This document shows positions 8,833 to 53,388 of a stretch of 64,000 nucleotides of DNA, piece by piece. Both the position numbers and the translations under genes were made by a program. Within the stretch, counting starts at the first letter, position 1. Each line of letters starts with the position of its first letter. This DNA is from Faecalibacterium prausnitzii (GTDB lineage: Bacteria; Bacillota; Clostridia; Oscillospirales; Ruminococcaceae), in the NCBI RefSeq assembly GCF_003324185.1, contig NZ_PXUP01000004.1:62001-126000 (forward strand). Reading direction: 5' to 3'. The notes under the pieces are model-generated. The model searched no databases. It was not told the DNA's origin and worked only from the letters and a program-made list of their open reading frames with translations.

Positions 8833-10347
8833 TTAGCCGTTCATGATGCTGGGGGTGGCATTTTTCAGCACAACGTCGTGGCTGCCGCCCTCCACGATGG
8901 AGGTGGAAGAAACAACGGTCAGCTTGGCCTTCTGCTGCAGCTCGGGGATGGACAGAGCGCCGCAGTTGCACATGGTGCTCTTCACCTTGTACAGGGTGGT
9001 CTGCACGCCGTCTGCCAGAGGACCGGCGTAAGGCACATAGCTGTCCACGCCCTCCTCAAAGCTCAGCTTGGTGGAGCCGCCCAGGTCATAGCGCTGCCAG
9101 TTGCGGGCACGGTTGGAGCCTTCGCCCCAGTACTCCTTCATATACTGGCCGTTGATGCGCACCTTGTTCGTGGGGCTCTCGTCAAAGCGGGCAAAGTAGC
9201 GGCCCAGCATCACGAAGTCTGCGCCCATAGCCAGCGCGAGGGTGATGTGGTAGTCATGGACGATGCCGCCGTCGGAGCAGATGGGCACATAGATGCCGGT
9301 CTCCTTGTAGTACTCATCGCGTGCCTTGGCAACCTCGATAACAGCGGTAGCCTGACCACGGCCGATGCCCTTGGTCTCGCGGGTGATGCAGATGGAGCCG
9401 CCGCCGATGCCGATCTTCACGAAGTCTGCACCAGCCTCAGCGAGGAAGCGGAAACCCTCGGCGTCCACCACGTTGCCGGCACCCACCTTGACGGTGTCGC
9501 CGTAGTGCTCGCGGATCCAGCCGATGGTGCGGCTCTGCCACTCGGAGTAGCCCTCGGAGGAGTCGATGCACAGCACATCCACACCGGCCTCTACCAGTGC
9601 GGGCACGCGCTGAGCGTAGTCGCGGGTGTTGATGCCGGCACCCACAACGTAGCTCTTGTTCTTATCCAGCAGCTCGTTGACGTTTGCCTTGTGGGAGTCG
9701 TAGTCCTTGCGGAATACCATATACACCAGATTGCCCTCGGCATCCACCAGCGGCAGGGTGTTGATCTTGTTGTCCCAGATGATGTTGTTGCAGTCGTGCA
9801 GGGAGGTGTTGGCCGGAGCAGTGACCAGCTTTTCAACGGGGGTCATAAAGGTGGTGACGCAGGCGTCGTCCGGGGTGTGGTTGATGCGGTAATCGCGGGA
9901 AGCCACGATGCCCAGCAGCTTGCCATTGGGAGTACCGTCGGCAGTGATGGCAATGGTGGAGTGGCCGGTGCGTGCCTTCAGCTCCAGCACGTCATGCAGG
10001 GTGGCAGTGGGAGCCAGATTGGAATCGGACACCACATAGCCGGCCTTGAAGCTCTTGACGCGGCGCACCATAGCGGCCTCGTTCTCGATGCTCTGAGAGC
10101 CATAGATAAAGGAAACGCCGCCCTGACGAGCCAGTGCAATGGCCAGCTTATCGCCGGAGACCGACTGCATGATGGCGCTGATCATGGGGATATTCATCTG
10201 CAGCGGGCACTCCTCCTGTCCCTTGCGGTACTTGACCAGCGGGGTCTTCAGGCTGACCGCCGTAGGCACATTCTCCGCAGAGGAATAGCCGGGGACCAGC
10301 AGGTACTCGCCAAAGGTGCGGGAGGGTTCTTCGTAGAAATAAGCCAT
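8833..10347 (-). CDS. guaB: IMP dehydrogenase
   Basis: This 504-residue enzyme oxidises IMP to XMP with NAD+, the committed step of GMP synthesis. The catalytic barrel is split by a CBS-pair domain (about residues 95-215). The active-site loop [12 protein letters not shown] carries the catalytic cysteine, preceded by the phosphate-binding VKVGAGNV region; SDGGI and MLGRYFAR follow. The C-terminus is longer than in many bacterial forms. An ATG at 10347 is chosen because AAAAGGAG lies 7 bases before it; the in-frame TTG two codons earlier would be too close. A repeat element sits in the leader just upstream. Confidence 0.95.
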
Positions 10348-10368
10348 AATCAAACTCCTTTTCTCTTA

Positions 10369-10530
10369 GGGTGTATCTGAAAAGTCGAAAATTTAGCCTA
10401 TTTCTACAAGCACAGCTGGATTTTGCGTTAAACAGCCTTGAAATCCACAAAGGATTCCTGCGGCTATTTGCCTTAAATCCCGCTTGTGCTTGCGAAATAT
10501 TCGTCATTTTCTTTGTTTCCAGATACACCT
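10369..10530. repeat. 162-bp inverted-repeat (MITE-like) element in the guaB leader
   Basis: The element begins GGGTGTATCTG and ends CAGATACACCT, and its two halves are imperfect inverted copies over almost the whole length, so the RNA would fold as one long hairpin. It is flanked by TTA at 10366-10368 and 10531-10533, which fits a 3-bp target duplication. It encodes nothing. Its edge is 8-9 bases upstream of the guaB Shine-Dalgarno site. Confidence 0.75.
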
Positions 10531-10588
10531 TTAACGCATCCGATAAAGATCAGCATCAAAATCCTTCATGTTTGCTGCCTATAAATTG

Positions 10589-10618
10589 ATTGTATATACT
10601 TTACCACAAAGCCCGCAA
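10589..10618 (-). promoter_or_regulatory. Candidate guaB promoter upstream of the repeat element
   Basis: TTGCGG (10613-10618) and TACAAT (10589-10594) are 18 bp apart reading leftward. If used, the whole inverted-repeat element would be transcribed in the guaB 5' leader. Confidence 0.45.
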
Positions 10619-10758
10619 GAATACAAACCCCTGCCGCGCCAAACTTTATAATTGTCCTTTGCGGAAAAACAGACAAATTGCCAAGCGTTTTTAGGCATTG
10701 GTCATACTTTGATTTTTGAAGTATCACTTTTGCAGGCAAATCAGAGCTTACAGAATGC

Positions 10759-10788
10759 AAAAAAGCTCGTCCGGAACATCGGACGAGC
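10759..10788 (-). terminator. Intrinsic terminator of the candidate sRNA
   Basis: GCTCGTCCG pairs with CGGACGAGC around a 6-base loop, followed on the minus strand by six T. No protein gene lies upstream of it on that strand. Confidence 0.85.
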
Positions 10789-10939
10789 CCTTTTGCACAC
10801 GAAGCGGGACACTGCCTGTGCGGCGCATGGGTCATAGCTGTGAAGGAGAACAGCCGGAGGAGGAGGACCCGCGCCCAGTATCCCAAAAAACAAGAAGAAA
10901 AAGATTTCACACACAGCCTTGGGGCTTTGCCCTTGCTGT
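10759..10939 (-). ncRNA. Candidate small regulatory RNA (unnamed)
   Basis: A strong promoter (10946-10974) and an intrinsic terminator (10759-10788) bracket about 180 bases with no credible gene. The transcript folds well: GGGATACTG pairs with CAGTGTCCC, GGCGC with GCGCC, GGGTC with GACCC and GGCTG with CAGCT. The unpaired regions are pyrimidine-rich (CTCCTCCTCC in an internal loop, TTCTCCTTC in the apical loop) and could pair with Shine-Dalgarno sequences. A further weaker stem pairs TGTGTGTGAA with TTCGTGTGCA, giving a long rod with an open bubble that loosely recalls 6S RNA. The promoter boxes match those of the SRP RNA gene. Identity is not established. Confidence 0.5.
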
Positions 10940-10945
10940 AACCAT

Positions 10946-10974
10946 ATTGTAACTCTTTTGAAACCATTTTGCAA
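10946..10974 (-). promoter_or_regulatory. Promoter of the candidate sRNA
   Basis: TTGCAA (10969-10974) and TACAAT (10946-10951) are 17 bp apart reading leftward, the same boxes and spacing as the SRP RNA promoter at 39759-39787. Confidence 0.65.
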
Positions 10975-11129
10975 TAGGGTTTTGTAATTTTTTTGTAATT
11001 TATTTTGTTAACTTTTTATGTCCTGCCCCGCCGGGCTGTCGCAAAGATTATTTCCCTTTTTGTACCCGGTATGGTATACTGGCTATGAATATGCTGCCAC
11101 AGGCAGAAAAAAGGAGTTTAGGATACGGT

Positions 11130-11930
11130 ATGAAAACAAAATTGGGTATTGTGGGCTGCGGATTTCTGGGCAACATCGTGGCTGACGCGTGGAAGAAGGG
11201 TCTGCTGCCGGACTACGAGCTGGTGGGCGTGACCAGCCGCACCCGCGCTTCGGCTGAAAAGACCGCCGCCAATGTCGGCTGCGCCGTCTGTGAGGACGTG
11301 GACGCACTGCTGGCACTTGAGCCGGAGTACATCGTGGAGGCGGCCTCGGTGGAGTCGGTGCGCGCCATGGCCATCCCGGTGCTGAAACGGGGCGTGAATC
11401 TGGTCATTCTGTCCATCGGTGCCTTTGCGGATCTGGATTTCTACGCACAGGTCAAGGCAGCTGCTGTGGAGGGCGGTGCCAAGGTGCACCTGGCCAGCGG
11501 TGCTATCGGCGGCTTCGACGTGCTGCAGACTGTCACCCTGATGGCACAGGCGCAGGGCCTGCCGGAGACCGCCGGCATCGAGACCCATACCGGTGCAAAG
11601 GGCTTCCGCAACACCCCGGTGTGGGCAGAGCATCTGCTGACCGACACCGAAAAGACCACCGTGTTCACCGGCAACGCCAAGCAGGCCATTGCCACCTTCC
11701 CCCGCCGGGTGAACGTGGCTGTGGCTACCTCTCTGGCCACCACCGGCCCCGAGAGCACCGGTGTGACCATGCACTCCGTGCCCGGCTGGGTGGGCGATGA
11801 CCACTGCATCACTGCCGAGATCGAGGGCGTGAAGGCTGTGGTGGATATCTGCTCTTCCACCAGCGCCATTGCGGGCTGGAGCGCCGTCTCTCTGCTGCGC
11901 AATCTGGCCTCGCCCGTCTGCTTCTACTAA
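11130..11930 (+). CDS. NAD(P)-dependent amino acid dehydrogenase, aspartate dehydrogenase-like
   Basis: This 266-residue protein has an N-terminal Rossmann fold (GIVGCGFLGNIVAD, residues 6-19) and a C-terminal domain of the DUF108/NadX type (GAIGGFDVLQT and THTGAKGFRNTP). The family oxidises L-aspartate to iminoaspartate for NAD synthesis, or acts as a reductive amination enzyme on related substrates. No nadA or nadC is adjacent, so the NAD role is not supported by context. The downstream gene is another NAD-dependent dehydrogenase only 18 bases away. The ATG at 11130 begins the conserved Rossmann sequence; its GGAG lies about 14 bases upstream, a rather long spacing, and an earlier in-frame ATG at 11085 cannot be excluded. 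Confidence 0.8.
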   Translation: MKTKLGIVGCGFLGNIVADAWKKGLLPDYELVGVTSRTRASAEKTAANVGCAVCEDVDALLALEPEYIVEAASVESVRAMAIPVLKRGVNLVILSIGAFADLDFYAQVKAAAVEGGAKVHLASGAIGGFDVLQTVTLMAQAQGLPETAGIETHTGAKGFRNTPVWAEHLLTDTEKTTVFTGNAKQAIATFPRRVNVAVATSLATTGPESTGVTMHSVPGWVGDDHCITAEIEGVKAVVDICSSTSAIAGWSAVSLLRNLASPVCFY

Positions 11931-35632: not shown

Positions 35633-35983
35633 TGGTGGAGGCGATGGGAGTCGAACCCATGTCCGAAAAGAGCTCAGTGTAGGTATCTCCGGGTGCAGGC
35701 GATCTACAACATTCCCGCCGCGCCACGCCGATCGTCAGGCTAGCGCTTTGGTAGCTTCATGAGTTCCTGCCGGTCCGCAAAGCTTAGGTCCGTTCAGGTG
35801 CTGTGTCTAAAGGACGCCCCGACCCCACACGACACAAGAGTGGGCGGAACGCGCAGCACTCAGGCTGCGAGCAACTGATAATTATTGTTGTCAGTTAATT
35901 TTTTTGGAGGAGTTATAGAGCAGTTCCCCCGCTGCTACCCGCTGCCCAGACCTTGCTCCCCCCGTCGAAACCTTTACGCCCCC
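35633..35983 (-). ncRNA. ssrA: Transfer-messenger RNA (tmRNA)
   Basis: The 5' end GGGGGCGTAAAGGTTTCGAC and the 3' end with TTCGACTCCC and CGCCTCCACCA form the tRNA-like domain with encoded CCA. The tag frame ends LTDNNNYQLLAA and stops at 35860-35862; I did not fix the resume codon. A GCACATC/GATGTGC hairpin lies directly upstream and may guide processing. smpB lies 70 bases upstream on the same strand. Confidence 0.95.
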
Positions 35984-39554: not shown

Positions 39555-39758
39555 GGACAGCGCTCGACGGGGTTTTGTCCCCGCCTTGCGTAACTCGGCA
39601 TACGGATGCAGGCTTACTGAAACGCACGAACGCTCTGCTTAAGGCTGCTTGGTTCCCCACCTGACCTGGTTCACAGCGAGCCCATCGTACAGGACCCGCA
39701 TCCGTATGCCGAACCACGCAGCAGGCGCTGTCCGACACATCCTTGTGGATGCTAAGAT
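39555..39758 (-). ncRNA. ffs: Signal recognition particle RNA
   Basis: The domain IV core is clear on the minus strand: CCAGGTCAGGTGGGGAACC, then AAGCAGCCTTAAGCAG. The ends GGACAGCGC and GCGCTGTCC pair, and GGCATACGGATGC pairs with GCATCCGTATGCC. The mature molecule could begin at 39733; a small GCATCC/GGATGT hairpin precedes it. A T-rich stretch follows the 3' end. Its position before dnaX is standard for Firmicutes. Confidence 0.92.
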
Positions 39759-53091: not shown

Positions 53092-53111
53092 ACAGACGCA
53101 ATTTGCCTGCC

Positions 53112-53224
53112 GTTTCTTGCATCCGGACTATACCGTTGGTCCCGGAGTTGCACCGGGTCAGCACCCTTGCGGGTGGTCGCGGACTTTACCGCCAGTGGGG
53201 AATTGCACCCCGCCCTGAAACGAA
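53112..53224 (-). promoter_or_regulatory. FMN riboswitch (RFN element)
   Basis: On the minus strand the conserved parts are in order: CAGGGCGGGGTGCAATTCCC, then ACTGGCGGTAAAGTCCGCGA, two variable hairpins, and AGTCCGGATGCAAGAAACG. With FMN bound, ribU transcription should stop at the following terminator. Confidence 0.96.
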
Positions 53225-53388
53225 CTTTCTGACCAAGAGTATAGCGCGGTACTGCGGCGCTGTCAAGCCCCCTTTCCAAAAAGTTTGCACATTTTTTGTC
53301 AAAGTGCGTTTTCACCTTTCTTTCCTTGCCCCGGGCGGCAGAGTATGCTATCATAATATGCGTTGTGAAAAAACACAGGAGGTTTTCC

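Follow-up and report, generated by a model that had tools for sequence, protein, structure and literature searches.

In this study, we asked what is encoded by a locus upstream of an IMP dehydrogenase (IMPDH) gene in a 64-kb window of Faecalibacterium prausnitzii DNA (the whole stretch that was analysed, 64,000 nt), and what its product might do. The first-pass annotation had proposed an independent small RNA with pyrimidine-rich loops and had noted that its author knew of no described family with such a sequence. Comparison with Rfam settled the identity of the RNA, as a full-length match (model positions 1-108 of 108) to RF02994, "IMPDH RNA" (type sRNA), was obtained at 10782-10889 on the minus strand with 118.8 bits. 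Because this score exceeds the curated cut-off of 95.4, the view that the family was undescribed is overturned, and the window RNA is a member of an already catalogued family. The family was reportedly among the 224 candidate structured RNAs that Weinberg and colleagues assembled in 2017; a literature search by the name "IMPDH RNA" and by the Rfam number found no paper.

The physical description given in the first-pass annotation has held up well. The predicted transcript (10939-10760) is 180 nt long and ends in a terminator evident in both sequence and fold, in agreement with the original estimate of about 180 bases and a strong terminator. Its folding energy is -71.4 kcal/mol (z = -3.29), and 0 of 200 shuffles were as good. 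The boxes upstream of the SRP RNA read TTGCAA-17-TACAAT and are identical in sequence and spacing to those of the IMPDH RNA promoter, just as had been reported. It is from this promoter that the first-pass annotation's suggestion of an abundant RNA derives. The long rod with two unpaired patches was also recovered in the predicted fold, which leaves CTCCTCCTCC and, at 10849-10842, the apical patch TCTCCTTC single-stranded (Table 1). One promoter-like site was found in 10300-11200, where shuffles gave a mean of 1.4, so there is no excess, and a simple terminator scan of the same interval listed none. Conservation of the -10 and of the terminator T-run, each present in 30 of 30 genus loci, is stronger support for the locus than these scans. 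With its conserved loops and its own promoter and terminator sequences, the locus is, we infer from the sequence, transcribed as an independent RNA. Each of the 30 genus RNAs has a predicted leader hairpin, whose pairs and positions vary and which rests on single-sequence folds because its pairing on the alignment is poor (52.9-54.0% of cells). The absence of a coding sequence was likewise upheld: a 133-aa open reading frame at 10566-10967 traverses the terminator, and the gaps among the 30 loci are not multiples of three and break the frame. In other genera, an ATG within CTTTTTCATG is followed by frames of differing length (read by eye), and a small protein was rejected there as well. Between the IMPDH RNA and the IMPDH gene, no riboswitch or other known RNA was found above the Rfam cut-offs.

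Table 1. Features of the IMPDH RNA locus and other RNAs of the window (positions are those of the window; SD, Shine-Dalgarno)
Feature	Position	Strand	Details
IMP dehydrogenase gene	8833-10347	-	Downstream of the RNA; PF00478, NCBIfam NF005493
Intrinsic terminator	10759-10790	-	GCTCGTCCG/CGGACGAGC helix, then T6 at 10764-10759
Predicted IMPDH RNA transcript, ~180 nt	10760-10939	-	Ends placed from the promoter and the terminator; z of the fold -3.29
Conserved tail CTTCGTGTGCAAAA	10791-10804	-	Precedes the terminator
Rod	10806-10884	-	Lower and middle helices separated by a 7-nt 3' bulge, then an internal loop and the apical hairpin
Apical loop TTCTCCTTC, second anti-SD-like loop	10842-10850	-	Nearly invariant within the genus, differs in other genera
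Anti-SD-like loop 1 CTCCTCCTCC	10856-10865	-	Unpaired in predicted fold; carries TCCTCC
Conserved linker GAAATCTTTTTCTTCTTG	10891-10908	-	Mostly unpaired; CTTTTTCAT is the counterpart in most other genera
5' hairpin	10913-10939	-	Right after predicted start; outside the Rfam match
Second direct-repeat box	10937-10953	-	GTTACA-N5-GTTACA; overlaps -10 and predicted start site
Promoter	10946-10974	-	-35 TTGCAA 10974-10969, 17-nt spacer, -10 TACAAT 10951-10946
Upstream direct-repeat box	10983-10999	-	ATTACA-N5-ATTACA; 5' of -35; OmpR/PhoB-type response-regulator-like
tmRNA	35633-35983	-	Rfam
SRP RNA	39603-39701	-	Rfam
FMN riboswitch	53107-53226	-	Rfam

The RNA is present in nearly all of the Faecalibacterium genomes searched. 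Matches to RF02994 were identified in 31 of 150 relatives (25 above the cut-off), comprising 30 of the 31 genus genomes and a weak match in G080 (27.7 bits), which was not counted as it has no promoter, linker or loop and by eye resembles coding DNA. Across the 30 aligned loci, conservation extends to the -10 GTTACAAT (30 of 30), the linker, the two loops, the tail and the terminator, and the rod stems vary compensatorily; the first-pass annotation had named such compensatory changes among homologues as a check. In the full transcript, changes on both sides were seen in 33 of 48 pairs (mean of shuffles 19.8; 0 of 500 shuffles reached this number), and 88.4% of cells are paired, versus 38.2-45.8% with partners slid. 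When only the rod is considered, 18 of 25 pairs have changed on both sides (26 distinct rows), and 91.0% of cells are paired versus 81.3% in shuffles and 29.6-57.3% with slid partners; in both comparisons the unslid version is favoured, since the structure was derived from a single member, L006. The 14-pair helix of the terminator is paired in 99.5% of cells (30 sequences). A possible pairing between the bulge GCACAGG and UGUGC in the tail was also considered, and it lies beyond the reach of covariation because both segments are nearly invariant. A loop-motif search of sequence records returned 40 stretches, and those in unrelated taxa are taken as chance.

A new result of our analyses is the identification of putative relatives of the RNA, recognized from sequence features, in 13 other genera of the family. 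They comprise 38 genomes (g9 4, g13 2, g19 4, g21 1, g25 1, g26 6, g32 4, g42 3, g47 1, g48 1, g55 3, g59 5 and g154 3), a count sorted by eye with the aid of the IMPDH neighbour. A covariance model of 30 sequences with the terminator (R1) found one convincing relative among 396 family genomes, in G343, where the RNA is upstream of an IMPDH 80% identical to that of the window. Of the R1 matches in 12 non-genus genomes, all but that one were unconvincing, and in G055, G215, G225, G294 and G391 the match was on a different contig from the RNA found later, so such matches are considered to be mostly terminators. A pattern running from the -10 to CTCCTCC matched 64 of 396 genomes, many by chance, and a promoter-only pattern matched 49 of 297 genomes, with its reversed control in one. 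The pattern searches yielded a set characterized by a -35 TTGACA, GTTACAATTTAGTTGCAAGAAAGTTACA, CTTTTTCAT and TCCTCC, in variants; L186 (g25) has no CTTTTTCAT, and L236 was included for its resemblance to genus mates. The hits L132-L134, L154, L155, L157, L158, L162, L163, L171, L177, L180-L183, L187 and L188 were rejected as they are without IMPDH and the other elements, and the remaining hits of the -10-to-CTCCTCC pattern were discarded on the match sequence alone. An order-wide pattern search matched 12 of 394 genomes, where IMPDH was seen only at L195 (G038, already counted) and L193 is the known copy of G055; since this pattern misses the window's own RNA, relatives outside the family cannot be excluded by it.

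The covariance models back the kinship of the 38 relatives only weakly. RF02994 had no match above its cut-off in 14 non-genus loci, and in 13 loci, one per genus, gave a single match (26.1 bits, E 0.33) under the cut-off. A terminator-free model built from Faecalibacterium only (R2) matched 14 of the 38 loci with E values no higher than 1, versus 1 of 31 control loci, with matches from 5 of the 13 genera (g9, g21, g26, g48 and g59; best E 1.6e-4). The proposed kinship relies instead on promoter, position, motif and predicted architecture. Most genera are predicted to have a lower and a middle helix with UCCUCC unpaired on the 5' side just ahead of the apical hairpin, and several non-genus genera also a 3' bulge of ~7 nt. 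The rod sequence diverges outside the genus and UCCUCC is retained; in g55 the rod is absent, and CUUUUUCAUGUGUUCUUCUCCUCCUUUC and the terminator are retained. The terminator finder did not list L160, which has no TCCTCC. It misplaced ends in, among others, L152, L138, L185, L122, L135 and L161, and the folds and distances at those loci are therefore unsafe.

The sequence best kept through this divergence is short. In 66 of the 68 RNAs, TCCTCC is found no more than 150 nt downstream of the -10, L030 and L160 being the exceptions, where 5.3 would be expected from dinucleotide shuffles. CTCCTCC was part of the pattern that retrieved 23 of the 38 relatives; of the other 15, retrieved without it, 14 carry TCCTCC against 0.63 expected. 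These 15 were accepted because of a neighbouring IMPDH (14) or, for L236, a resemblance to genus mates, and the script that collected them also took CTCCTCC as a sign, which was needed by L186 only. The predicted unpaired probability of TCCTCC averages 0.85 in the 66 RNAs, and that of all their hexamers 0.44. The value is moderate (0.62) for the RNA of the window, and TCCTCC is not predicted to be unpaired in L186 (0.33) or in two g55 loci (0.04 and 0.20), whose folded stretch extends beyond the terminator. The second loop, UUCUCCUUC, is kept within the genus and not outside it. The pyrimidine patches resemble the anti-Shine-Dalgarno (anti-SD) end of 16S rRNA in its general form. That an unpaired UCCUCC is kept across genera suggests silencing of mRNAs by covering their ribosome-binding sites.

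In most loci, the RNA is associated with IMPDH. The gene is downstream on the same strand in 28 of the 30 genus loci, and G024 and G020 have no IMPDH within 10 kb around the RNA. It was also observed that in these two genomes (L039 and L040), where the RNA has no adjoining IMPDH in the 10 kb examined, the tail is ATGTGTGTGCAAAA in place of CTTCGTGTGCAAAA. Outside the genus, 31 of the 38 loci have the same IMPDH type downstream on the strand of the RNA, at 94 nt to ~1.4 kb from the terminator end placed by the script. The gene is on the opposite strand in four (three divergent g154 loci and G360), and in the other three (L236, L128 and L237) no IMPDH was seen in the sequence examined around the RNA. 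As a control, one genome was taken from each of 30 genera without a counted RNA, some with chance pattern hits, and 14 of the 30 had the window's IMPDH type. In the 560 nt upstream of those 14 genes, GTTACAAT was found in none, TCCTCC in one, TTTTTCA in three and both of the latter in none. In a tree of the IMPDHs of 30 carriers (of the 68, from 12 of the 14 genera) and the 14 controls, made by a quick method with midpoint rooting, a branch with an SH-aLRT of 89 (not starred) separates the carriers from the controls. This corresponds to one change, and 0 of 500 shuffles were as low. A single origin beside IMPDH with later rearrangement would fit these sequences best.

Several further features of the IMPDH genes were observed. 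The genus IMPDH upstream regions have in common a promoter-like block after the terminator of the RNA (e.g. TTTGTATT...TGTGGTATAGTATA). Two IMPDH types occur among 30 family genomes, 71-78% or about 35-38% identical to that of the window, and G034 has both. In the window, a MITE-like element of ~164 nt (10367-10530, minus strand) with inverted-repeat ends GGTGTATCTG / CAGATACACC separates the promoter block of IMPDH from the SD of the gene, and it has three genomic copies of 97-100% identity. The close relative L013 does not have this element, and its IMPDH starts nearer to the RNA.

The promoter itself carries two direct-repeat boxes that resemble those of OmpR-type regulators. The motif DTWACA-N5-DTWACA has two matches in the 64-kb window, both in the IMPDH RNA promoter, where 0.09 would be expected and two occurred in 0 of 100 shuffles, although this count is descriptive since the motif was picked after the repeats had been seen. 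The exact box 5' of the -35 is present in 25 of the 30 genus promoters (20 at the window's position and five ~11 nt, about one helical turn, farther up) and in 4 of 38 outside the genus; the shuffle expectation is 0.04 of 68, with relatedness ignored. For the box over the -10, 28 of the 30 genus promoters match exactly. Outside the genus, 36 of 38 have one mismatch and 2 have two, but most of this box was part of the pattern by which they were retrieved. No three-repeat array was found elsewhere in the genome with one mismatch allowed. The WalR (YycF) consensus in B. subtilis is TGTWAH-N5-TGTWAH (PMC9210968), and when read on the opposite strand, where DTWACA-N5-DTWACA is its reverse complement, it has the same two exact matches. 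The YycF model NF040534 gave 13 near-full-length matches in the genome, the best with 252.9 bits, below the cut-off of 340. The repeats suggest possible control by a response regulator of the OmpR type; an AT-rich UP element would account equally well for the part 5' of the -35. GTTACA repeats with 11-nt spacing were also seen at L196, L197, L198 and L202 (genus g16), L191 and L192, with no IMPDH alongside in the sequence examined, and are possibly operators for the same regulator type.

Taken together, we favour, with a probability of about 0.5, the reading that IMPDH RNA is an Hfq-independent, trans-acting sRNA that pairs with the SD sites of a set of mRNAs and blocks their translation. The stable rod would present CUCCUCCUCC in single-stranded form, joined in Faecalibacterium by UUCUCCUUC; these patches would pair in trans with the SD sites of several mRNAs, and the occlusion of those sites would block translation without Hfq. 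A search of the genome for Hfq gave no match, where the control matched in 5 of 14 genomes. Duplexes were predicted for the 19 of the window's 41 open reading frames that had a scored SD, and start regions were compared with coding segments. Predicted pairing was stronger at start regions for loop 1 (mean -10.5 versus -8.1 kcal/mol), the apical loop (-8.5 versus -6.9 kcal/mol) and the linker (-8.9 versus -5.8 kcal/mol), and no better there for the tail (-7.6 versus -9.1) or a longer apical segment (-14.9 versus -16.1). A special pairing with the IMPDH mRNA was rejected, as its start region ranks 13th (loop 1), 12th (apical loop) and 5th (linker) of the 19. The suggestion in the first-pass annotation that the loops could sequester SD sites has become the best-supported candidate mechanism, as UCCUCC is kept in 14 genera and mostly predicted to be unpaired. 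An Hfq-independent anti-SD mechanism does exist, as shown by NfeR1 of Sinorhizobium, which has unpaired CCUCCUCCC motifs on freely varying stems and acts by pairing at the translation initiation region (PMC10746234).

The main rival, which we regard as unlikely, is that the pyrimidine patches bind an RNA-binding protein and that the RNA is a sponge or scaffold and does not act by base-pairing. Proteins of the cold-shock, KH or S1-domain types would be candidates, and the nearly invariant linker TCTTTTTCTTCTTG, the pyrimidine loops on a conserved rod and the lack of an Hfq match would suit such a role. However, the word best kept across genera is the anti-SD core UCCUCC, and the pyrimidines around it vary. 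The RNA might otherwise damp translation globally, if it were abundant and, as an anti-SD mimic, covered SD sites at large with no defined regulon. The generic nature of its anti-SD sequence, a consensus-like promoter in common with the SRP RNA and the unremarkable rank of IMPDH among the 19 start regions are all compatible with this, but the conserved regulator-like promoter suggests conditional expression, and we consider a global role improbable.

We give similarly little credence to an action in cis, in which the RNA is an attenuator or leader and terminator readthrough controls IMPDH. The same-strand position upstream of one IMPDH type in 28 of 30 genus and 31 of 38 other loci would suit such a leader. 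Against it, IMPDH has its own promoter-like block 3' of the RNA's terminator, the two are divergent in the three g154 genomes and on opposite strands in G360, the RNA persists in G024 and G020 with no IMPDH in the surrounding 10 kb, and in the 14 other genera with the same IMPDH type, the 560 nt upstream of the gene show no trace of the RNA. The proposal that the RNA is a divergent 6S RNA, which would bind RNA polymerase, retains almost no probability. It was based on the long rod with unpaired regions, but in the covariance search RF00013 was absent among the five Rfam matches up to E = 5, and the genome has a separate 6S RNA at G000:C4:71921-72125 (L044:422-626) with 66.8 bits, above the cut-off. 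In addition, 6S matches were obtained in 126 of 150 relatives, and the large unpaired patch of the rod is a one-sided pyrimidine loop.

The RNA family was already known; what our analyses add is its range outside the genus, a conserved core and a possible regulator site. The comparison identifies the parts that have been kept as the promoter, a CUUUUUCAU-like linker, UCCUCC and the terminator. Faecalibacterium is an abundant genus of the human gut, and IMPDH RNA becomes a testable candidate anti-SD regulator there, in a genome without detectable Hfq.

Among known RNAs, the closest counterpart is RF02994 itself, whose full model the window RNA matches above the curated cut-off and whose name, from which we read the location upstream of IMPDH, agrees with the downstream same-strand PF00478/NF005493 gene. 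The model differs in spanning 108 of the ~180 nt; the 5' hairpin and the greater part of the linker lie outside it. With 6S RNA (RF00013), the resemblance is in being rod-like with its own promoter and terminator. If the proposed mechanism holds, a functional analogy with the ar14/NfeR1/'cuckoo' RNAs would lie in unpaired anti-SD motifs, variable stems, Hfq independence and a conserved promoter stretch (PMC10746234). IMPDH RNA is not a member of the ar14 family, whose model RF02344 (cut-off 58.8) gave 17.1 bits for the window, 24.3 for L138 and 22.9 for L124. The ar14/cuckoo RNAs have three hairpins each with CCUCCUCCC, whereas IMPDH RNA has one rod and one CUCCUCCUCC loop with UCCUCC (PMC10746234). 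Tentatively, and with less confidence than in the mechanism alone, IMPDH RNA could be the Rfam-visible tip of a lineage-wide, Hfq-free anti-SD sRNA family in 14 genera around Faecalibacterium, with one origin beside IMPDH and control by an OmpR-type response regulator via 11-nt phased repeats. Such a family would couple the translation of a regulon to the sensing of the envelope or of nutrients, and would give gut Clostridia a convergent counterpart to the anti-SD sRNAs of Alphaproteobacteria.
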